Origin: Paracyclopina nana
Lineage: Eukaryota; Arthropoda; Copepoda; Cyclopoida; Cyclopettidae
DNA length: 64,000 nt
Assembly (NCBI GenBank): GCA_019096065.1
Contig: JAGUCH010000003.1
Location: forward strand, 10,106,001-10,170,000
Direction: 5' to 3'
The position numbers and the translations under genes are program-made. The notes under the pieces are model-generated. The model was not told the origin of the DNA and made no database searches. It worked only from the letters and a program-made list of their open reading frames with translations. Positions 34,501-52,300 of this stretch are shown piece by piece; within the stretch, counting starts at the first letter, position 1, and the number at the start of each line of letters is the position of its first letter.

Positions 34501-37500
34501 ACTGAGACCAAATTCTGAGCTGGACTTGAAAATGTCATTGGCTCTTATGATTCTTGAGCCCAGACTTTTCAATGCCAAAATTGGCCAGCTGTATAGAGAC
34601 TTTTTTCGGTGTGTGGCTTTGATTACAGAAAAGGCTATTTTTAATGAAACATTGGGCAACCAAATCTGCAGGGACAGTGCATACTTTGGAAATTGTACCA
34701 TACCTCAAGTAAGTGGGATGCAGACACTTCAGCTAAATTAATCCGATATTGAGGTTGGCAATCTCTACTTTTTTCCAGCTCTCTATTTTTGGGCAGCAAA
34801 ACCAAAAAGTAAAGCAAAACTATTGCATTACAAATAACACTGCAAGCTGTGCAACTCAACTTGCTGAGACAGTTTTAAGAAGGTTGACATCTCGAAAAGA
34901 TATTGAGGGATGTAAAAGACCTCCTGCTGCCATCATGTATAAAGTGAAGCCTTCTGAGATTGATTACATGCCTGGTTCATTACCAAATACATCTGCGTGA
35001 GTTATTTTTTTGCCAATTTTACATTCCTTTGCTTAATAAAAATGAATAATAACTCTGGGAAATTTCAGTATTTGGATGGTCTATTCATCTAGTTCAATAG
35101 TAATATCAGAAGATTATGTGCTATTTGATGCTTTTGCAATAATTGGTTCAGTTGGAGGATCATTGGGCCTTTTCCTGGGATTTTCCTGTTTTGATTGCTT
35201 TAACCGCTTATGGAATTTTACAAAACAGACAAAATTCTCCATTTACTGCAAACCTAAAAACATTGTTCGATAAATCATAATTCAGTATGTAAATATAAAT
35301 ACTGTACATCAGGATATTAAAATGATGCCAAAATAAGCATCAACCCATTTCAAACATTTTTAAGCCTTTTCAGCTGATAACTCGGTGTAGTATTTACTAT
35401 GTTAATTGTATTGTATTTGTGTGTTGTTGCTGTCATTTGTTTCTTCATGAATAAATGGAAAGTAAATAATAAACCTAGAAGCTTTTTCATTGATTAATAT
35501 GGGAATTTTCTGACACCCATAGCAAGCACATTAGTTTAGCTTAAAATGTTCATGCTGGAAGACGTAATTAAATTTTTGGCCTATGTTGGCCTGAGCATTG
35601 CATTTATGATTCAAGTTCAAGATTCAGTTGTTAAGTTCCTCAATGGAAAAACAACTGTGGTAACATCATCTGTTGAAGTCAAGGATCAAGGAGTTTTGTT
35701 TTACCCCCAAGCCTCAATTTGTAGCAAGATAGCCTACAAAGGGGACATGCTAGCAAAATACAATCTTTCGTCCTACGAAAGTTACGGTGGGCATTTTGCT
35801 AAATGGCCAAGCACAAGTGAACAAGTTGAGCTAGCTTGGGACCAATCCACTCATGATTTGGCGGATTTCCTCAAGTCAGCAACAATAACTAACGAAGATG
35901 GTAGCTCTGATAATTGCTCCTTCGAAAGTTTAGGAAAGTGTGGATTTGTAATTAAGCCAGTGAATACACTTCTGAATGGGAGATGCTTTACACTATTTTT
36001 CAACCAATCTGTGGAAGATCAACGAAATGTACTCGTCCATGTCCACAACAATCCAGTATGACCACAAATACACAACTGTACTGCAACCTAATGTATTACG
36101 TAACATTGTATTGCTACATAGGATGTATCCATTGAGCCGAGCATTTTTCTACATGCCCCAGGCGAAGAGGTATCTTTGGTTTACCAATACTGGTATGCTG
36201 ATGTGTTCTTCGCAAAACTGAAGCCAAACACTGAGTTGGACTTGAAAATGAGCCTGACATTCGAGATGCGAAAGCACAACCATGAGTTCCACCAAATTAA
36301 CCAGCAATACAGGGATTTCTTTCAGTGTCTCTTTGAAGACAACTCGAGCCATTTTTAATGCAACTTTGGCCAGTCGAATTTGCGCAGCTGGAAACTTTGG
36401 AAACTGCACAATACCCCATGTAAGTATCTTTGCCATTGCTGCAACAATTGTAAGCTACTTTCCTCGCACGGCAAAAAAGGGAGTGAGCAAACTTTCTTGG
36501 AAAGTAACTTGTGTAATTTTTTTCGCTCTCTTCCGGAGAGAGAAACTTTCATCATCTCTAACAACTGCAACATGACAAGATTCTTACATTCCCTTTTGTG
36601 GTTCCCATTCTCTTTTGGCTGGCAGCATCTAATTAGCAATTCTTTTTAAGCTTTCCCTTTTTGAAGAGGAGAGTTCACAACGCCAAGTCAAACAGAATTA
36701 TTGTGTGACAAATGCAACAGCTAGCTGTGCAGTTTTGCTTGCTGAAACTGTCTTGGTGAAGCTGCCAACTCAGAATTATATTGTGGGATGTGAAAAGCCT
36801 CATGCAGTCATGGTGTATAAAGTGAAGCCTTATGAGATTGATTTCATGCCAGATGCATTACCAAACTCCTCAGCGTGAGTTTTTCGCATTGAATTTTAAA
36901 AATCCTGTTATCTTACGTTTGTTGTAACGTTCACTTATTTTGTAAAGATAAAAGTGAAAGCAATCGACTGATGCTTTCCCTTTTTTTCCACCGTCAATTC
37001 CTAAAATTGACTTTTTTACGGCTGCTACAGCTTTTGGATGGTCTACACTTCAGCTTCATTGGCAATTCGAGAAGATTATGTGCTATTTGATGCCTTTTCC
37101 ATCATTGGTTCAGTGGGAGGGTCAATGGGCCTATTCCTGGGCTTTTCCTGTTTCGACTGCTTTAACCGCATGTGGTATTTCGCAAGGCAGGCCAAACGTT
37201 ACCTGGGTAATCCACCAAAGTCCCATTCTGCGCAAATGTAGGGGCCGGGCCTGAAGATTACAAAGAGGTCTTCCTCCTGGGCCATTCGAAGGAAAGCAGG
37301 CAAATCCAGGAACAGGGAAAAGTCGCGGCCACCCTGGCCAAAATCGAATACGCCTTCTTCTGGCTCATGCAGATTCCAGGGCACATACCTGTAATTGTTT
37401 TAACTATTATAACTTTCTAAATTGGCTGATTTTGAAGGAGCCTCACACATCAATGGCATTGAGGCCAGCTGCCCTGAATTTCCTCAGCCTGTCTCTCCAG

Positions 37501-38065
37501 TAAGCTGGATGTACCCTGAAGTAATGCAGGGAGCCACTGAAGATGCGGAACCTTTTCCCATTCAATGTGAACCAATCCCTTTCATCTGCTGCCAGCCCTG
37601 AATCAATGCCACCCTCTTCGAAGTACTGGTACAGGGTTTGCAGCCCATCTTGCTGCACTTGCCTCTTGGCCAGTGAAACATTGGCCATTGCTTCTTCTCC
37701 TCCCCTGATCAACTGAAAATACATTTTGATAATACACTCACTGGCACTGTAACAAGTTGCTCAACCTGAGCTGTGTTATTGATAAATCTTGAGTCAACCT
37801 CTTGGTAGAGTATGAAGAAAATGAAATGGTACAGAGTGGCAAAACCGAGGACGATTTTGCACCTGTGATTGGTGAAATTGTGGAACACTCTGCGCCTGAC
37901 TTTGAGCAGGCATTTGTCCATGATACAACTACTGATCGAAATGGACATTTATGCTATGCTTTTTTAAAAGAGAGTGAAAATTCGCACCTGATCGGCAGCA
38001 TCCTTTTTTCCAGCAGCAGCTGCTGCTGAAGCTACAGCAATAGCTAGCCACAAAATACTCAACAT
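25508..38065 (-). CDS. GH35 beta-galactosidase (secreted form), host of a nested gene cluster
   Basis: Thirteen minus-strand exons: 38065-37988, 37712-37447, 37388-37203, 28690-28534, 28478-28319, 28261-28109, 28050-27883, 27829-27636, 27341-27177, 27046-26967, 26916-26698, 26510-26258 and 25609-25508. They close in phase to 726 residues. Exon 1 encodes a signal peptide ([18 protein letters not shown]). The enzyme should remove terminal beta-linked galactose. GH35 signatures in order: [52 protein letters not shown] with the acid/base Glu near residue 233, and [10 protein letters not shown] with the nucleophile Glu near 313. Next are FHGGTNFGF, then the beta domains, ending [21 protein letters not shown]. 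Both catalytic glutamates are present and ~80 residues apart, as expected. It resembles the GLB1/GLB1L family. The third intron (28691-37202) carries a DEG/ENaC array on the other strand. Confidence 0.92.
26007..26060 (-). repeat. Intronic hairpin repeat, copy 3
   Basis: Reverse-oriented copy: an ATTCAGTTTGAGACACTGAA hairpin, an AACAAAAAT stretch and GAGTCTCATT. It lies in the last GH35 intron (25610-26257). Confidence 0.65.
27431..27487 (+). repeat. Intronic hairpin repeat, copy 4
   Basis: AATGAGACTTGATTG, then TTTTGTGTTCAGTCCTCGAA and ACTGACAT. It lies in the GH35 intron 27342-27635. Confidence 0.65.
28693..29103. other. GC-rich patch inside the GH35 intron, upstream of the DEG/ENaC array
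   Basis: Positions ~28855-28975 are unusually GC-rich for this window, with repeated GGCCGGCC motifs (for example CGGCCGGCCCGGCCGGCCCG). It lies just upstream of the first nested channel gene and may act as a promoter or enhancer for the array. This is inference only. Confidence 0.35.
29104..30557 (+). CDS. DEG/ENaC (pickpocket-like) channel subunit A
   Basis: Exons 29104-29120, 29220-29691, 29747-30061, 30110-30324 and 30380-30557 join in frame to about 398 residues. The tiny first exon ends AG|GTAAGC and its phase fits the acceptor one base before the ATG at 29221; without it the protein starts at 29221. DEG/ENaC subunits form trimeric amiloride-type sodium channels with two membrane segments and a cysteine-rich outer domain. 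Seen here: a first segment ([16 protein letters not shown]), [15 protein letters not shown], many ectodomain cysteines including NPCKKPC, then [14 protein letters not shown] at the second segment. The usual Gly-x-Ser filter triplet reads Ser-Phe-Ser. The protein is short for the family. A poly(A) signal is at 30624. It is the first gene of an array inside the GH35 intron. Confidence 0.82.
30668..31950 (+). pseudogene. Decayed DEG/ENaC gene B
   Basis: Pieces of a paralogue of the flanking channel genes occur in order on the + strand but in several frames. They are a start region with [31 protein letters not shown], then after a frame change at ~30960 [17 protein letters not shown], then ~31500 [11 protein letters not shown], and ~31770-31940 with [14 protein letters not shown] and, again after a frame change, [11 protein letters not shown]. 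The second membrane segment with the GxS motif is not found. Frameshifts, stops and the missing C-terminus make it a pseudogene or remnant. Confidence 0.75.
32180..33570 (+). CDS. DEG/ENaC (pickpocket-like) channel subunit C
   Basis: Exons 32180-32686, 32741-33037, 33099-33313 and 33387-33570 join in frame to 400 residues. The first membrane segment starts almost at the N-terminus ([24 protein letters not shown]), so the cytoplasmic His-Gly gating motif of classic family members is absent. Then come [16 protein letters not shown], an outer domain with conserved cysteines ([39 protein letters not shown]) and the second segment [18 protein letters not shown] with an intact Gly-Phe-Ser filter. 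Introns are 54-73 bases. It is 60-70% similar by eye to genes D and E, indicating recent tandem duplication. Likely a subunit of a sodium or cation channel in sensory, epithelial or other tissue; ligand unknown. Confidence 0.87.
33839..35273 (+). CDS. DEG/ENaC (pickpocket-like) channel subunit D
   Basis: Exons 33839-34345, 34406-34708, 34779-34996 and 35069-35273 join in frame to 410 residues. Intron positions and phases are the same as in genes C and E. It starts [20 protein letters not shown], with no N-terminal cytoplasmic part. Then follow [60 protein letters not shown] and [20 protein letters not shown] with the Gly-Phe-Ser filter. The start at 33839 is chosen because upstream in-frame sequence has no ATG and genes C and E align from this Met. 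A poly(A) signal lies at 35450-35455. It is the most canonical member of the array. Confidence 0.88.
35546..37241 (+). CDS. DEG/ENaC channel subunit E with a one-base frameshift
   Basis: Exons 35546-36055, 36122-36419, 36651-36874 and 37031-37241 align with genes C and D along their whole length. They run from [20 protein letters not shown] through [24 protein letters not shown] and [15 protein letters not shown] to [18 protein letters not shown]. Exon 2 is 298 bases, one more than the 297 of gene C (303 in D). The extra base falls near 36325-36335, where the frame passes from [11 protein letters not shown] (soon stopped) to [12 protein letters not shown]. Unless this is a sequencing error, translation would end early and the gene is a very young pseudogene. 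The last 39 coding bases (37203-37241) overlap a GH35 exon on the other strand. Confidence 0.75.
37742..37948 (-). CDS. Alternative first exon of the GH35 gene: type II membrane anchor
   Basis: A minus-strand ATG at 37948 opens 69 codons that end at a strong donor (CCA|GTGAGT) in phase 0. This matches exactly the phase needed by the second GH35 exon at 37712. The peptide has a basic stretch ([16 protein letters not shown]), then a hydrophobic segment ([17 protein letters not shown]), then a polar stem with an NNT glycosylation site. That is the layout of a Golgi or surface type II anchor, whereas the other first exon (38065-37988) encodes a cleavable signal peptide. Transcripts are needed to prove use. 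Confidence 0.55.
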
Positions 38066-38159
38066 TTTAGCTGTTATGCAGGAAGTTGGACGGAAATATG
38101 CCAAATACAGAAAATATGCCAAATACAGCAGCAGCCTTTGATGTGAAGGTAGATTTCGT

Positions 38160-38741
38160 GGACTAATCACTCCTCAGAGTTGCATAATGAGGAATTATTC
38201 TATATGTGAAGATAATCAAATATGCAATGACGGATTTGTCGTTATCTCTAAAGCAAATCCCACTGAAATGTTCAATAATTACACCGAAAATGAGATTAGG
38301 GCAGCTGACATGTACCAATTACCCTGTCTCAGCAAAGTTAATAATTTTTCATTTTTTGCCCTTTTCCAGGAGAAACAATACAGCCTTCAGTTTTCTTATC
38401 TGCTCCTCGTTTTATTAATGATTTAATTCTATTTTTCTGATCGCAGAAAAATACGTAACAAAAGGAAATGCTATCACTCAACTTCACATGCATACAAAAA
38501 CCATCTATTTTTCATTTGCACTTTATGGCTTTTGTAGCAAAAACAGCTTTTTTGTATGTTTGAAAGCAGAGAACAAAAACTAGGTTCTATTTGCACTTCA
38601 AAATACTGTAAATATAGAGACGACGTTTTCCTGATTGTTGAAAATATTCCAGTTTACACACATCCAAATACAGAGTGCAGAGTCATACCTCAAAATCCAG
38701 ATAAGATAATCCCAGATTCTGGTTTTTATGGGGAATTATGA
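38160..38741 (+). pseudogene. Two Cys-rich exon-like fragments related to the lectin gene tail
   Basis: Open stretches at about 38166-38340 (YSICEDNQICNDGFVVISK) and 38571-38741 (GSICTSKYCKYRDDVFLIVE) resemble each other. Both also resemble a segment of the C-type lectin gene at 47262-47340 (HPICADFQICNLQYGFVATL). They share an IC-x4-(I)C-x2/4-FV pattern. No start, signal peptide or complete gene could be built. They may be remnants of duplicated exons or exons of an unrecognised gene between GH35 and the zinc transporter. Confidence 0.35.
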
Positions 38742-38865
38742 GTTATGACACTCGCTTGCCGAGACGCCCAGTACTACATTATTAGATAAGCACTTTTTCT
38801 GTATTGTTTGAGTTTGCTCAGCAGTTAATAGCGTGTTCATCTCTGCGCGAGTCAGCAGCAGTAAA

Positions 38866-40616
38866 ATGGAGGCTGAAACTGCGAAAATCATAACAATGCT
38901 CCTCTTGGGCTTGGGCTCTCTCCTTCTCGGCTTTTTGCCACTCAAAATTGGCAAATTGTTCATGTCTGAAAATGAGCACCATTGGAAGAGAACGTTGACC
39001 TCCATTCTGCTCTGCTTTGGAGGTGGGGTGCTTTTTGCCACCTCACTGATCCATATGCTACCAGAGGTAATTTAAACGAAATGCTCTAATCAAATATTTT
39101 CTCTTATTGGTCAACTTTTGCTTTCACCCTACAAAACTGAATTTGAGCCTCAATGATACAAAATTGATAAATGTAATCACTTTAACTAGTTAAAAAGAAG
39201 AAAATGTATTTTTGCAGGTGAGGGAGAATCTGGAGAATTCCAAGGTGGATTTTGAGGGAGCTCCAGTGGCTGAAATTTTGCTCTGTGCTGGATTCTTTTT
39301 GATCTACTTGATTGAGGAGAGTGTCCACTTTTTCCTGGATTCTTCAGTGCACCATCACCATGATGAAACCATACAAGCTCACAGGTTAATATCAATGCAA
39401 TGTGTATATAAATGCATGTTTACTTTTTGTTATTGCAGGGCTTTTAGCATTCACTCTCAAGCCTGCGAGGCTGGCTTGATTGATGTACAGCAGTGCCAAA
39501 GTCCAAGGGGTGGGTCAAAGTGCAAATTTTTCTTTTTTTTTTTTAAAAAAAAAAAAATACAATTTTCATTAAAGGATCCATTAGTGAAACTCGGAGACGA
39601 AGGACAGTTTCAACTCCAGCTTCCGGAGAATTTCTCTCCCAGCCCAATTACAAAACTTTCAATTTTGTCAAATTCGACAGCTCCTCCTCAAATGGACATA
39701 GGCACCAGAGCCCACCTCCAAATAACGTAATAGCTGGATCCTCCATAAGAACAGAGTCGACATCAACCACAAATTTCTCATGTGACCAAGAAGGGATGGG
39801 GAACAATCCGACCAAAAGTTCACTGAGGGACTTTTTCACTGTGCTCGCATTATCGTTTCATGCAGTATTCGAAGGCCTTGCTGTAGGCCTTGAAAACGAG
39901 GCCTATGACGTATGGATGCTATTCGCAGGTAATATTTCTTATCAACTTCTTCGTATTTGACGATGTTTTTATTGCTGTGTTTTTTTGTCGAAGCTCCAAA
40001 GTCAAATCAAATGACAGATTAATGAGACTCGGTTGCCACCTTGCAGTTTTGTTTTCAGTATCTGAAACTGAAATCAGAGCGCAAAGGATTACACTTCTCG
40101 ACATTTTTTCATTATGCGATCAACTTTTCTATCTTTTCTAGCTGTGGCTACTCATAAGTATGTCATCTCATTTTGCGTGGGCCTCGAGCTTTTCCAGGCC
40201 AAAACGAGGCTTCTCATATACTCTGTGTATATGCTCGTTTTTGCCCTCATCTCTCCGGTTGGCATTGGCATAGGAATTGCCATCACTGCCAATATGGAGA
40301 GTGGCACAGCCTATTTTCTCTCGGTGGCCATTATGCAAGCTTTGGCAGGAGGAACCATCATTTATGTGGTCGTTTTCGAGGTCCTCGAGAGAGAAAGGTC
40401 GAAAAGTGTGTCAGGCCTGGCCCAGTGGTTTTTCGTCATTCTGGGATTCAGTGTCATGATGACCATTGAACTCTTGGGTAATCAATGCTTATATTTATTC
40501 TTCTTTTTTAAAATCTCAACAATATTTTTTAACACTATTTAGCTGGGCACAGCCATGATCATGATCATGGGCATATGGATGAGGGTGGCTGCTCAAATGA
40601 GACAATGGCCATTTAA
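38866..40616 (+). CDS. ZIP-family zinc transporter (SLC39A1-3-like)
   Basis: Exons 38866-39066, 39218-39384, 39439-39509, 39575-39928, 40142-40477 and 40543-40616 join in frame to 400 residues. ZIP proteins move zinc (sometimes iron) into the cytoplasm across the plasma or organelle membrane. Membrane segments are visible at IITMLLLGLGSLLLGFLPL and in the stretches around LCFGGGVLFATSLIHMLPE and ILLCAGFFLIYLIEES. A His-rich loop (SSVHHHHDE) and a long Ser/Thr-rich loop follow. The metal-site segment LSFHAVFEGLAVGLE has the His and Glu typical of subfamily ZIP II (ZIP1-3), followed by HKYVISFCVGLELF. The C-terminus is His-rich (GHSHDHDHGHMDE). The 354-base fourth exon is in a frame that lacks an early ATG. 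The stop at 40616 is 10 bases from the stop of the convergent next gene. Confidence 0.92.
40021..40074 (+). repeat. Intronic hairpin repeat, copy 5
   Basis: AATGAGACTCGGTTG, then TTTTGTTTTCAGTATCTGAA and ACTGAAAT. It lies in the zinc-transporter intron 39929-40141. Confidence 0.7.
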
Positions 40617-40626
40617 AAAAGCCTTT

Positions 40627-43600
40627 TCAAATGTGGTAGGAGACAGCAGCCATTTCCTCATACTCGATGGCCTCGACAGATGACGAGGGCCTTTGATTAA
40701 ATTCAGATTTTGCATTATTAGCGATGTCAATACTTTTGGTTTTGTTCAGAGAGCTCCAATAAGTTGCATTGTAGGCTGCAAAAGCTTTCTCAAACTCCTC
40801 CCTCATGACATAGTCAAAATGCTCCAGTTCTCTTCTCACAGTTTGGGTGATTCTGTCGAATTTGGCCTGAATGGCCTCCAAGTCGTCATTGGGATCCTTC
40901 AGCTCCACAACTGGAGCTTGCGAAGAGTCTTCCTCCTCCTTTTTGCTGGATGCTTTTGAGCCCTTTTTGGCGGACTTTTTGGTGGCTTTCTCCAGGTCCA
41001 TTTGCACCTTTCTCCTCCTTGCAAGCACATCCTGAGCAGATGCAATCATTTGGGCGTAATCTCCTGATATTTGCACAATGTGGTCATCAGCATTGGCTTG
41101 CTCGTAGTAAATTGAAGACATCACTCGTTGGGCATCAACCACTTGATCAATGATGTGGCCAAAGTCGTTCTCCTTCACTGTGGATCTTCCGACTAATAGA
41201 AGCACCAAATCTCGCCTGAACTCGTCCGATTCTTCGTGCAATTGGTGCTTTAATTTAGCCATGCCACGCAAGTTTTTGTGCATTTCATTCATTTGGTTCA
41301 ACAGAGACCTCAATTGCCCATGCCTTGTCTGAAAATCAAACATTTTCAATGCATTTCAGCGAACCATCTAAATCTAGGGTTAATTTCATTTAAAAAATTG
41401 AGACTTAATTGAAAAGCCAAAAAATGTATCTTACAACATGAACAAAAAGTATCGTCAAAATGCAAAATGTATTCAAGCGTATTCCTGTGAGATCACATTT
41501 CAGTCTGGAGGACTGAAAACAAAATCACAAGAGGACAACCAAGTCTCATTACTTTCAAATTTGTTCTGAAAAAGCTACTCAGCCAAAAAAAAACCAACTT
41601 CACCTGGAACCAAGGATCCTTCTCTGTCACTGCGATTCTTGACCTGAAAACCGCCATTTTGGCCTTCATACCAGCCATGGCTCCTTTGAAGGTGACCATG
41701 GGCTTCAGAGACTTTGCCACTTCCTTTTCCTGAATAAATGACCAGAACATGGCATCCTTCCTCACCACTGGATGCCTGGCCAGCCTCTTCATGTATCTGT
41801 CCAGGGCCACACACTTTTTATCAATGGCTCTGGAAGCAGTTGAGGCTGACAAATCTTTGCCATTGATGGAGGATGAATTCTCAATGAAGCCGAGGCTGTT
41901 CTTTTGCGGTGGAGGTGGAACAATGACGCCATCTTTTTTGTAGGTGAGCAAAAGGAACTCATACAGCTGCTCGATTTGCGAATACGTACGGGTGACGCTG
42001 TAATGGCTGTTGCCGCCAATCTGGCCTGACCGTTCGCCTCCATACCTCGTCAAAATGGTGTACACCACTGACTTGAACAAGCCTTTCCTGGTCTTGAAAG
42101 GCTCTGAAACAGCTATAGATATCTTCTGCCCGCCCACAACTCCACTTGCACCTCCATTCAATAGCTAAAATACAAAAAGTAGCGATACAATTTGAAATAT
42201 GTATTTTCCACTGCTTACTTGAAGTTTCATGGCCAAGTCTTCAGCTATCCGATTTCGAGAGTTCATCAAAGCATGGCCACATTGTGGGCAATCATTGAGC
42301 CTTTGGTTGCATTGCTTGCATAGTAAGTGACCTTCAGGGCATTGGTAAATGGGTGGAGAATCAGCTGTATCCAAGCAAACCGGGCATTCCAGAGTGTTCA
42401 TCAATTCATTGATTTTGGCATCAGTCTAAGTGAAAGAAATAAGTATAACTAATTGGGCTTTGCTTACGGAGGCTCTGGTAGTAATAATTTTTGCCGCTAG
42501 GAGGAGCTAATGATAGCACAGCTAATGGCAGCGTAGGCTAAGCGGGCTGAAAATTGAATTTCGATCTGTTTCTGTTTGCACCTGCTCCGCTGCTAGCCCC
42601 GATCTAAAAAAATTGAACCTCCGATCAATTTTTAAAGTCAACAGATATGGTATTTTTCAACTAATTCACTAATATTTCAGTGTTCTAATTTTTTAAAAGT
42701 AAGATTTAATCCAGTTTTGTTGCCATTTTATGGGCACATTGAGTAATAATTGTGTGCCTTGCAGGACAATTTGCCCAAGAAAAGCAAGCTTAATGCACAG
42801 AGGAGCTTTCTGGAAAAGGCAGAAAATCTCTTGTTTTTTTACCAGAACGCCAAATATTTTGTTTTGAAAAGTCAAAAAGCCAAATGATAACGATTATGCG
42901 ACGAACTAGTTGAAAGGACGCCGAAATAGAATAGGAGGTTACTCCTAATGCCATCTTTTTTACCTTATTCGGAGTGAGCAAAGCCCAATTATGGTATGAT
43001 TGGAAAAATCAACAGCTCTACTTTACAGCACTAACTTTCAAGCAAAAATCCTACATAAGCTAGTAGTTTAAAGGGCATGAGTAAAAATCAAAAGTGAGAG
43101 GAGCAAACACACAGAAAATAACTTTTTTGCAAAATGCCCTTGAGAAAATTTGCCTTGACAATTTTGTCTTTACTTCTGAAATCAGCAATTATATGTGGAA
43201 AGGCCAGTTTGCTCTGAAGGTGAATCTTTGACTAAATTTTCTTTTTCTTGAGAAAAAAAAGGATGGGCATGAGTGAAAAGCAAAAGTGAGAGTAGGAAAA
43301 AACACAGAAAACCCATTTCATGTTTTGGCCTTTCTTAGACCTACCAGGCTTGACTTTTTGCTTAAAGCCCATCTCTGAAAGCACAATGGTTGGAAAAGGC
43401 CAGTTTGATTATAACCAAAATTTTACTTGAGATATTTCTGATGCCTCAAAGTCCAAGTTTTGCCTGTACCCTTCAAGGCCATCCTCTCCATCAGTGCTTC
43501 TCAGGGGTGGCAGCCTTTGAGGAAGGCCACCTTCTGTCATGATGGCCTCTCCACTTGGGCCTATCTCTAGGCTTGTGGAGGGTCTTCTTCCATTTTCAGG

Positions 43601-43741
43601 GCTGTTGCCTCCAACGCTTCCTGGCAAGTCATCATTGTTGCTGCTCATCTGGTTGTTAGTTGCTGGACTTGACTTTTTTGAAGGAGAATTCAAAATGTCA
43701 GAATATGACCCAGAGTCATCAGGTTTATTCACACTTGCCAT
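40627..43741 (-). CDS. Sorting nexin (SNX1/2-like PX-BAR) with N-terminal RING finger
   Basis: Exons 43741-43427, 42425-42219, 42164-41604 and 41328-40627, all joined in phase 0, give 594 residues. Residues 1-105 are polar and disordered. Residues ~118-155 form a SIAH-type C3HC4 RING with all eight zinc ligands: CPVC (119,122), Cys134 and His138 in CPEGH, LLCKQC (141,144) and CPQC (151,154). A PX domain follows (ISIAVSEPFKTRKGLFKSVV, RTYSQIEQLYEFLL, VPPPPQKNSLG) and then a BAR-like helical region with HFDYVMREEFEKAFAAYNATYWSSL near the end. PX-BAR sorting nexins bind phosphoinositides and shape endosomal tubules for retromer-type recycling. A RING implies ubiquitin-ligase activity at endosomes (inference). 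The RING exon has no start or stop of its own and fits both neighbours in phase. A lysine-rich insert interrupts the BAR region. Confidence 0.85.
41497..41552 (-). repeat. Intronic hairpin repeat, copy 6
   Basis: Reverse-oriented copy: a TTTCAGTCTGGAGGACTGAA hairpin, AACAAAATC and AAGTCTCATT. It lies in the sorting-nexin intron 41329-41603. Confidence 0.7.
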
Positions 43742-47839: not shown

Positions 47840-49086
47840 ATGGCAGCTCAGACAGTCCAAAAGGCTGCGGTTTTTGGCTTTTATGTCTTTTTGCTGTTTT
47901 TATGCCTAATTCAGGCCTTGAGCATCATCAAAGATTTCCTCAATGGCAAGACACTTTTTGCAGCAACTGAAGAAAAGCAGGATAATTTGGCAATGCCAGA
48001 AATCACTTTGTGCCCGAGCAATATCCTGAATATTCACAAGTTGCAGCATGACTACAATGCATCTTACAATGTAATGAACGGATTCTCCAGCATCCCACCG
48101 AGCATCAATTATGTTAAGCTTGTTGAAGAAGTGGCTTACATTTTGAACAGAGATTTCACCCTGGAATTGCAGCATTACAATACATCTGGGTACATGTCCA
48201 AAATCAGGCTCAAAACTGGCCTCAATGCCATTCCAAATTTGCCAGTCAAGGTTGAAATCAAAGTAAGTAAAAGTGACATTTTTCAAGAGCTATGCAACTT
48301 AATTTTTTTTGTCAGGTACATGAGAGGAAAAATTTCAATCATGGGATATGTTATGTGATTACATCTCCAGATTACTTTTCTAAGGTTGGCGCCACTTTTG
48401 GACTTTACTTGAGTTTCTCGCTGAAGCCAGAGGAAATCCCTCAGTCTTTTATTGTGTACATCAGTGAACTGGGAGAATCCCATGGACTGCTCACAAATGG
48501 AGGCCTGAAAGGCTCCAAGCCTTTGGTGGACTTTATCAAGATCCACTCAACAATCATGTTTTTTCTGTCTAAACACATTTGGCGCTTTTAGCAAAAGTGC
48601 GCAATTTATCCCCCGGATTCAACTCGTTTTGTCTGCTTCGCCAGGGAATTCACTGAGCAGTTCCTGGGCTTGTCCAAAGTTTGCCCTGCAATTTGCACTT
48701 ACTCAGCCATTTCCGAATTACTCTTGGCAGCCTCTGTAACTCTGAGTGTACCAGAGTGCGAAAATAAGAGCCAGTACAAGTGCATCATTGAGGAGCACGA
48801 ACATCGGCTGCTCGAAGAGGCGGAAAAAGCGTGCAAAAAGCCTTGCGAAATGGTGCAATATGTGGGCACTCCTCAAGAATATTCGATTGGGCCCAGCGAC
48901 CACGAGACCTTTTTCGCCATCAAGTTCGAGTCGAATCAAGTGACAATTCATAACGAGGATTTGCTGTATAATTTCCCCAATGTGGTGGCCTCCGTGGGCG
49001 GCCTCCTTGGCCTCTTTGTCGGATTCTCCTTTTTCGACTGCGGCACATTTCTCATGGGGAGAGTGCTGCAAAAACTCGCATCATAA
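47840..49086 (+). CDS. DEG/ENaC (pickpocket-like) channel subunit G
   Basis: Exons 47840-48262, 48316-48525 and 48592-49086 join in phase 0 to 375 residues. The 48526-48591 intron was inferred because the unspliced frame meets a TAG just before the acceptor TTTTAG at 48586-48591. The first membrane segment is VFGFYVFLLFLCLIQALSI, followed by MPEITLCPSNIL. The outer domain has cysteines in VCPAICTYS, VPECENKSQYKC and KACKKPCEMVQY. The second segment is VASVGGLLGLFVGFSFFDC with an intact Gly-Phe-Ser filter. It is clearly diverged from the cluster at 29-37 kb and has lost the two introns that split the second half of those genes. It begins only ~48 bases after the lectin gene's poly(A) signal. 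AATAAA at 49344 is its own signal. Confidence 0.82.
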
Positions 49087-49389: not shown

Positions 49390-52300
49390 TTACTCGTTGT
49401 GGACTTCAAAGACAATTCCTCCATCAGCTAATAGGTGAGTGGCGCGTCCAAGTGTGGTGCGACCGGTCAAGGCAGCAGCGGCTGCTGCGGCCTCGTCCTC
49501 GGAATCGACCTCGTCGTCCTCATCTCCTCCAGTGGTGACAATGACAGCTTGCTCGCCATTGGCACCAGTGATGGTCTGTTGCGTAATCACCCTCGGTGTC
49601 GTGGAAATGACCCCAGTGTGCCTCTTGCGATGATGCGACAACGAACTGGAAAATATTGAAAGCATGGGAAAACAAAGCAACTCAATCAATTAAGTACCTC
49701 GAGTCGGTGAACCTTTGGTCGCACATGTTGCACTTGAAGGGCTTTTCCCCAGTGTGCACCCTTCGCCGATGCTCGGCCAGTTTGTGGGCAAGGAGGAAGC
49801 CTTTGCCGCACCATTCGCAAGCATGTGGACGCTCGTTGGAGTGTCTGGATTTCTGGTGGAGCAGCAGCTTGTCCCTGGTGATGAAGGCCTTGCCGCACTC
49901 TCCGCAGTGGAAGGCAGCGATGCCAGTGTGCAAGGCCATGTGGTACTTGAGACCACGTGGCGTCTTGAAGCCTCTCGGACACTGCAAAGAAAATATGTAA
50001 ATTCTCAAACTTTTCTAAAAATTCATCTAATTTCGCTCACAGTTTGGCATTGGTAGATGACGCTGTGCGACTTGACGTGGTAGAACCAGGACTTGTAGTT
50101 CCCGTAGATTTTGCCGCACTGGTCGCAGACGAACTCTTTCTGCTGCTCATTGTCGCCCTCCTTGATGGTTCCCTCCTTGTGCTTGGCCAAGTGGCGCTCG
50201 AGGTTCTTCTCGTAGTCGAAGGAGCGCGCGCACTCCCCGCACTTGTACATGCGGTCCTTCTTCTTCTCCTCGGACACGTGGGCGCGCTGCAAGTGGCGGA
50301 GGAACTTCTTGTGGTCCGTGCCAAAGTTCTTGGCACACTTGTCGCAAATCAGCTCCGCCTGGTGGATTTGCAGCGTGTGGATCCTCAGCGAGCGCTCCGC
50401 GCCGAACGTCTTGGGACACTCGTCGCACACCCACGTGGAGTTGGCGCACTTGTCATAGGCGGCCAAGTGGGCGCGGAGCTCGACCAGGGTGCGATACACG
50501 TGCTTGCACCCGAAGCACTTGAGCACCTCCTCGTCCTCGACCTTGGCCTTCTTCTCGGTGTCCTCCTCCTCGTCCGCCTCCTCCTCGCCGTCCTCGCGTT
50601 TGCGCTTCTTGATGCCGCCCTTCTCGGAGCCGACGATGACCAAGTCCTTGGGCACGTTGGGCAGCACCTTGCCGCCGCCCATGCACTCCTCGTAGTGGCC
50701 TCGCATGTACTCCCGCTTGGACATGGCCAGCCCGCACTCGACGCACTCCCACCCGTTCTCAGTCTGGACGTAGCGCCTTCGCCGCCCGCGGCCACGTGGC
50801 AACTTGTGCACCGGTCCGTCCATGTAGTCGTCGTCGTCGTCGTCGCTCTCCGACCCATCCTGGTTCCAGTCCTTGACCGCGAACAGGCTATTGGCATCCA
50901 TGGGGTTGAGCCGCGGGTCCATTTCGGTCTTGTAGTTGGCTGCGGCTGCGGCTGCGGCCGCGTTGGCCGCGGCTGCGTAATGATATTTTAATTCTTGGGC
51001 CGACTCGAAGCCCTCGGGGAGCTTGGTGAACGTCTGGGGCTGGCCAATGCCCATGGCAATGACAAGCTCAAAGTCCGGCTGCTGCTCGTCCGAGCCGTCC
51101 CCGTACAGCCAGGGCAGAAGGGTGTTCAAGTCATCCGTGGAGAAGTCCGGAAGCAAAATGGTCAGAGGCTCGTCTGAGGCTCGTCCGGCGGGGTCAATGT
51201 TCAAGATGGCCTTTCGCAGCAGAGGACTCGAGGCCGCGAGCACCAGTTGGTGCACAGTGGCCTCGCCGCCGTCGTTGGTGATCATTTTGATGTCGGAGTG
51301 CAGCTCGGCCTTGAAGCATTCGCGAAGGCCCTCTTGCAGCATGCTACGGTGGTAAATCATGCCGGGGTTCTCTTGCGAGAGCAGCGTCGTCGTGTCCATG
51401 GTGTCGGGGTCGAGAGCTCCAACCGAGCCCGGAACGGCAATGACCACGCCCTCTTGAGGCGGAGGAGCGTCAATCACGTTGAGGACCTCGGTGGTCATCT
51501 GGCTCGAGTCTCCAATCGGCACCACCGTGAACTCGTTCGATCCGGGAACCTAAAAATAATAAGCCTTGGATTTGAGTGTATGAAAATATAGAGGGAGCTC
51601 ATTTCCCAATTTTAGGGAAATTCCTCCGCTGATCGTAGGCCCCTGAGTGCAACGCCTTTTCCTATTGCTTTTTAAGAAAACTGAACATGTTGGAGCATAA
51701 AACCAAAATATGATGCTGTCATTTGAAGACATTCGCAAAATGTTCCGGATTTCAGGGAACTTCCTTTCTGCCAGAAATATAGTCATAATGGATATTGAGG
51801 TGAATATGCCATGCATAAAAGGTGATTTTTTCACCAAAATTGCTGCTGAGAAAAATACTAATGAGTTCATAATCATCATTTTTGAAAATACTGCATAGGT
51901 TTGACGAAAAAGTAAAAAACGTGATTTCTCATAGCTACACCGCTGCGTTGTTGCTAGCTCTATTTTCACAATAGGGGGCGCTATTTACCCTCGACGACAG
52001 GGACTATAGAATGTTACATATGCTAGTTTACTTAGGTAGTACTATGCTATTCTAGCCCCACTCAATGTTCACGCTTTACCTGGACGACTTTGAGTCCTCC
52101 GGACTCGTTGGATCCTTGAGAGCCAGCCACGAGGGTGACGGACTCCTGCTTCACGTTCAACCCGGAGGCAATGGCCCGCTTGCGATGCTTCATCGTGTAC
52201 ATGTGCTTGCGGATGTCGTTGACCTTGGGCGCCAGGTAGTCCCTGCAGAGCTTGCAGTAGGCGTACTCGGAGCCGTCCGGAGCCTTGGAGATGAAGGGGA

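Follow-up and report, generated by a model that had tools for sequence, protein, structure and literature searches.

The locus described here raises the question of whether a sorting nexin (SNX) can carry a ubiquitin-ligase finger of its own. In a window of 64,000 nucleotides of Paracyclopina nana DNA (contig C3, 10106001-10170000; "the window" is this whole stretch), an exon encoding a SIAH-type RING finger stands in front of exons encoding the PX and BAR domains of an SNX1/2-like protein. Is this one gene, does it make one protein, and would that protein act as a ligase on endosomes?

Gene model and predicted product

The RING-SNX gene occupies 43741-40627 on the minus strand. Four exons are read in one continuous frame into a product of 594 residues, and the three introns all have GT/AG borders and lie in phase 0 (Table 1). 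The initial annotation had placed the RING exon in phase between the N-terminal and PX exons, and our coordinates, strand, order and phase 0 GT...AG borders all agree with this. A stop codon is found in frame immediately 5' of the exon 1 ATG, and exon 1 used as a query against the whole genome gave no match besides the window itself. For exons 1 and 2, frame 0 was the sole stop-free forward frame, but its codon-usage score was not the highest. The exon 3/4 join (41604/41328) was picked from nine open donor/acceptor pairs on the basis of phase 0 and a pyrimidine-rich acceptor; this choice is a judgement, and neither RING nor PX is affected by it.

Table 1. Features of the RING-SNX locus and its neighbours (positions in the window)
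Feature	Position	Strand	Description
Exon 1	43427..43741	-	315 nt; ATG and N-terminal 105 residues
Intron 1	42426..43426	-	1001 nt, phase 0; lengthened by repeat insertion
Short high-copy element	42456..42986	.	~530 bp, 18-nt terminal inverted repeats; within intron 1
Exon 2 (RING)	42219..42425	-	207 nt, 69 residues; complete SIAH-type C3HC4 RING; symmetric phase 0-0
Intron 2	42165..42218	-	54 nt, phase 0; separates RING and PX exons
Exon 3	41604..42164	-	561 nt, 187 residues; PX domain and beginning of BAR
Intron 3	41329..41603	-	275 nt, phase 0
Exon 4	40627..41328	-	702 nt including stop; Vps5-type BAR domain
ZIP zinc transporter exons	38058-40543	+	tail to tail with RING-SNX gene; copied along to C6
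Glycosyl hydrolase 35 exon	37202-37399	-	neighbour
Amiloride-sensitive channel exon	48592-49083	+	neighbour
C2H2 zinc-finger exon	49685-50014	-	neighbour

A Pfam scan of the whole product recovered Sina_RING (residues 119-154, E 2.6e-11, 43.9 bits against a cut-off of 29.3), PX (residues 225-320, E 2.3e-12) and Vps5, the BAR family (residues 341-544, E 1.1e-16), the last two also over their cut-offs. In a sequence search of the PDB, SNX1 was the best solved relative (residues 189-550, E 5.1e-24), with SNX5 far weaker (1.7e-4), and the SIAH1 RING matched residues 106-171 (E 3.3e-10); the RING exon alone matched SIAH1 over exon residues 2-65 at E 6.3e-12. The scan of the whole product gave neither the SIAH zinc fingers nor the SIAH substrate-binding domain, and none of the 19 Pfam families in its list (E up to 1) was a FYVE family. 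For structure prediction, exons 3 and 4 were modelled separately. The exon 4 model, of low confidence (mean pLDDT 68.6), consists of three long helices (2-47, 55-125 and 146-211), and its best Foldseek matches were the weak ones to SNX1-SNX5 BAR structures (E 1.3e-4, TM ~0.4). The exon 3 model, also of low confidence (mean pLDDT 52.8), best matched SNX1 in the ESCPE-1 coat (4.6e-8). The combination of RING and SNX domains is beyond chance. The complete SIAH-type C3HC4 RING and the SNX1/2-like PX-BAR gene claimed in the initial annotation are both borne out, with the proviso that the gene is a divergent extra paralogue (see below).

The RING and PX-BAR parts could still belong to two transcripts, one joining exon 1 to the RING exon with intron 2 retained and encoding a RING protein, the other encoding the PX-BAR part. 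If intron 2 is retained, the frame stays open for 17 codons after the RING exon, closes at the TAG of the acceptor and yields a 191-residue protein. Elsewhere in the genome there is a 117-residue frame in which a Sina-type RING stands alone (L016), and it groups with the window RING in the tree described below (support 0.82). Against such a division, the 54-nt gap is hardly long enough to hold a second promoter, and the earliest Met of exon 3 falls within the PX domain, so that a PX-BAR product requires an upstream exon and its start would need exon 1 or 2. We therefore regard separate transcripts as very unlikely.

Second copy of the gene and the repeat in intron 1

A second locus, C6:270286-274999, matches window positions 43344-38058 in three pieces. 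This C6 copy holds the RING, PX and BAR exons (2-4) in the same order with open frames and also carries exons of the neighbouring ZIP transporter; exon 1 is absent, the copy being 5'-truncated. At the break, a frame of viral fusion glycoprotein type (Monjiviricetes_fusion, 1.7e-22; L045/L046, C6:269845-270291, minus strand) abuts the truncated copy.

Over exons 2-4 the two copies differ by six synonymous and three nonsynonymous substitutions (two residues), plus one codon. Synonymous and nonsynonymous changes number 3/0 in the RING exon, 0/3 in the PX exon and 3/0 in the BAR exon, and the overall values (dS 0.019, dN 0.0026, dN/dS ~0.14; P = 0.004 for the synonymous excess) rest on small, unpolarised counts. 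At the nucleotide level the copies diverge by 1.45% in the RING exon, by 0.53% in exon 3 and by 0.43% in exon 4. For the introns the values are 1.09% (intron 3), 1.85% (intron 2) and 3.45% (the portion of intron 1 common to both copies); the divergence of the RING exon is thus not below that of intron 3.

These comparisons bear on the reading that both copies are decaying pseudogenes or that the arrangement is an assembly artefact. The lack of exon 1 in the C6 copy, its break beside viral-type DNA and the loss of lipid-binding residues from the PX domain (see below) would fit decay or misassembly. Two separate loci agree with each other, however, exons 2-4 are open in both with a synonymous excess, and the splice sites of the window copy are intact, which makes this reading highly improbable. 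The fusion is real at the genome level and probably at the protein level too.

The short element within intron 1 ends ~30 bp ahead of the RING exon acceptor and is missing from the C6 copy. It has at least 40 matches in the genome (40 were scored of 134 candidates, the window copy included), the other 39 being 91-99% identical. Its position is relevant to splicing, as the RING exon might be an optional cassette, with a RING-less PX-BAR protein as the main product and the RING confined to a minor isoform. Products of exons 1-2-3 and of exons 1-3 are both in frame: because the RING exon is 0-0 symmetric, the frame is kept if it is skipped, and the RING-less product is one open frame. The repeat so near the RING acceptor, in the window copy only, would be in line with skipping. 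The full set of zinc ligands and the 3/0 ratio of synonymous to nonsynonymous changes between the copies, in contrast, point to a maintained coding exon, although alternative splicing is compatible with that too. On balance we consider the cassette unlikely, though less so than the other alternatives to a RING that is regularly spliced in.

Sorting nexins and Sina-type RINGs of the genome

The genome comprises 92 Mb in 10 contigs, in which TTAGG arrays are abundant (9278 overlapping matches on both strands), as expected of an arthropod. Besides the two RING-SNX copies, the Vps5 profile matched the whole genome at C2:15.546 Mb and C2:7.558 Mb. Splicing the C2:15.546 Mb gene by eye gives a match to SNX1 at 9.5e-101, against which the 5.1e-24 of RING-SNX is weak; at C2:7.558 Mb the PX piece matches SNX1 at 1.9e-29 and the BAR piece at 3.2e-25. 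Identity between RING-SNX and these two genes is 21-31% by exon piece. None of the 26 genome matches to Sina_RING falls inside the 10-kb stretches around the two loci, and the N-terminal frames scanned for them (one of L052, two of L053) were without any Pfam match up to an E of 0.1. With two closer SNX1/2 relatives showing no RING, the RING-SNX gene is an extra, divergent paralogue.

The 26 places matched by the Sina_RING profile across the genome include 24 over the cut-off, and two are the RING-SNX copies. Several of the other loci run on into SIAH-like sequence, the downstream frame being judged by eye. Five other single-exon RING frames were scanned with Pfam (L025, L029, L020, L016 and L024): one carries a PA domain, another has ankyrin repeats, and the remaining three have no family over its cut-off apart from the RING. 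In the first of these (L025, G000:C2:3747444-3747557), the Sina-type RING lies in one frame behind the PA domain and a hydrophobic stretch recognised by eye. PA-TM ligases usually carry RING-H2, and this gene is possibly a second RING capture. The ankyrin-repeat frame (L029, G000:C8:5200807-5200923) likewise has its Sina-type RING in one open frame, behind the repeats and a charged, coiled-coil-like stretch also seen by eye.

A tree was built from 19 RINGs out of 28 loci, with the window copy as L010. Left out were L009 (the same protein as L010), L021 (internal stop), L028 and L035 (partial), and L031, L032, L033, L034 and L036 (weaker or partial matches). The best match of the window RING in another gene is L011 (1.4e-14), while the best non-self match of L016 is the window RING; as these best matches disagree, a sister relation of the window RING and L016 is not secure.

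Since Sina-type RINGs are many and also accompany a PA domain in one gene and ankyrin repeats in another, RING capture looks recurrent and the fusion less isolated; RING-SNX fits a lineage that often reuses this RING. Exon shuffling is the most likely origin of the RING exon in the SNX gene. A bolder reading is that an SNX-BAR coat protein acquired a working ligase by capturing a SIAH-type RING exon, one of a kind that spread among unrelated genes (PA, ankyrin, PX-BAR) of this arthropod lineage, which we put forward tentatively, judging it possible rather than likely.

Predicted activity and relation to known endosomal ligases

All eight zinc ligands of the window RING are present (C119, C122, C134, H138, C141, C144, C151 and C154), as they are in the 18 other Sina-type RINGs aligned with it (19 in total), and the RING retains the CPVC and CPxC motifs common to SIAH1. 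The linchpin, the residue n+1 after the last zinc ligand (PMC7667886), is Gly in the window RING and Arg in SIAH1; among the 19 aligned RINGs it is Arg in 15, Gly in two, and Leu and Phe in one each. A RING without the usual Arg might be purely structural, folding around zinc and providing dimer or partner contacts without ligase activity. The presence of Arg at this position in SIAH1 and in 15/19 of the aligned RINGs speaks for such a role. PMC7667886, however, reports that half or more of the RINGs of human and yeast have a non-Arg linchpin, some of them being functional, and the SIAH1 motifs that are retained also argue against a structural RING, which we judge rather unlikely. The Gly linchpin implies that ligase activity may be weak or tied to a particular E2; as an Arg linchpin, common as it is, is reported to be dispensable elsewhere (PMC7667886), the window RING, though of uncertain activity, may nonetheless be active. 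A ligase role of the fused protein on endosomes would be plausible.

Canonical PtdIns3P binding needs four residues, namely an Arg-Tyr pair, the Lys of the PPK loop and an Arg of helix alpha2, and a survey of more than three quarters of the human PX domains reports that every PtdIns3P binder keeps all four (PMC6449406). With residue numbers anchored on SNX1 K184 and K237 (PMC8340361) and the others counted from these anchors, the PDB-search alignment of the window PX with SNX1 showed Thr for R186, Tyr for F187 and Lys for R238, with the PPK-loop Lys kept. Of the four PtdIns3P residues, the window PX has thus exchanged two, one Arg for Thr and the other for Lys, leaving the set incomplete; canonical PtdIns3P binding by this PX domain would be unlikely, and PtdIns3P-based targeting to endosomes is therefore doubtful. 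In SNX1 itself, the triple mutation of Y194, K196 and K200 is reported to abolish the remaining lipid binding (PMC6449406). At this secondary site the window PX keeps Y194 as Tyr, while K196 has become Phe and K200 Thr, so that two of the three are replaced.

A different route to the membrane may be available. The PX domains of SNX5/6/32 are described as binding no tested lipid, and the full proteins are still endosomal, likely via their BAR domains and pairing with SNX1/2 (PMC6449406). By analogy, the RING-SNX protein may reach endosomes by the same BAR/SNX-partner route. The initial annotation had seen in this locus a membrane-shaping endosomal protein with ligase potential. This functional reading is supported in part, by the complete set of zinc ligands, and weakened by the Gly linchpin and by the replacement of two of the four PtdIns3P residues.

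The reading that we favour, though we give it no better than an even chance as a whole, is a fusion gene in which a divergent SNX1/2-type SNX-BAR paralogue has a SIAH-type RING exon that is spliced in, making an endosomal and probably weak or E2-selective ligase. In such a protein, the RING exon would be spliced into the mRNA and the BAR part would dimerise, with itself or with another SNX-BAR. The dimer would place the protein on curved endosomal membrane, with PtdIns3P binding by the PX domain contributing little, and its two RINGs could then recruit E2~ubiquitin. Candidate targets would be coat partners, cargo or the RING-SNX protein itself, and the ligase would probably be weak or E2-selective because of the Gly linchpin.

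No RING-bearing sorting nexin or RING-PX-BAR protein was found in our literature searches, in line with the initial annotation, to which no described animal sorting nexin with a RING was known; the searches missed most subscription journals, and other RING-PX proteins may exist. RING-SNX resembles SNX1/SNX2 (ESCPE-1) in having a PX followed by a Vps5-type BAR, with a predicted three-helix BAR, and differs from them by the RING ahead of PX and by the two missing PtdIns3P residues. With the SIAH/sina E3 ligases it shares a RING of the Sina_RING family with eight ligands, but it lacks a Pfam match to the SIAH zinc-finger/substrate-binding domain, and its linchpin is Gly, not Arg. In a springtail, an EST with a SIAH match has been reported whose orthology was rejected by the authors, and the accessible part of that paper mentions no fusion (PMC2726227).

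A precedent for the concept is given by yeast Pib1, the fungal protein Upa1 and mammalian RFFL, endosomal proteins reported to have both a FYVE-type finger and a RING (PMC4466420, PMC12211564). Pib1, Upa1 and RFFL/RNF34 resemble RING-SNX in that a single chain is reported to hold a RING together with a lipid-binding finger that targets endosomes; their finger is of FYVE type and they have no BAR, whereas RING-SNX has PX and BAR and no FYVE match. Pib1 was also considered as a PX and RING precedent, since PMC2810449 describes it by the words "PX and RING", but it does not appear to be one: PMC4466420 gives FYVE, and so does Shin et al. 2001, cited there, in its title. As Pib1 and RFFL exist, a RING that is anchored to endosomes by lipid binding is a known idea; what our searches did not find is the RING-PX-BAR order, a new domain combination from known parts.

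MAGE-L2-TRIM27 is described as a ubiquitin ligase working at retromer (PMC7823608). It is alike in being a ligase at the retromer coat, but it consists of separate proteins recruited by binding, not fused. By this analogy a single RING-SNX chain would do work for which mammals use several proteins.

On endosomes, it is mostly through recruited complexes that E3 ligases encounter sorting nexins. If the fusion acts as proposed, membrane bending and the ubiquitylation of cargo or coat would take place within one polypeptide, and a natural RING-PX-BAR protein would permit a direct test of a membrane-bending coat that ubiquitylates its own cargo or partners. It would also show the re-targeting of a RING through exon shuffling, and the variety of architectures that include a Sina-type RING in this small genome offers an opportunity to study repeated domain capture.
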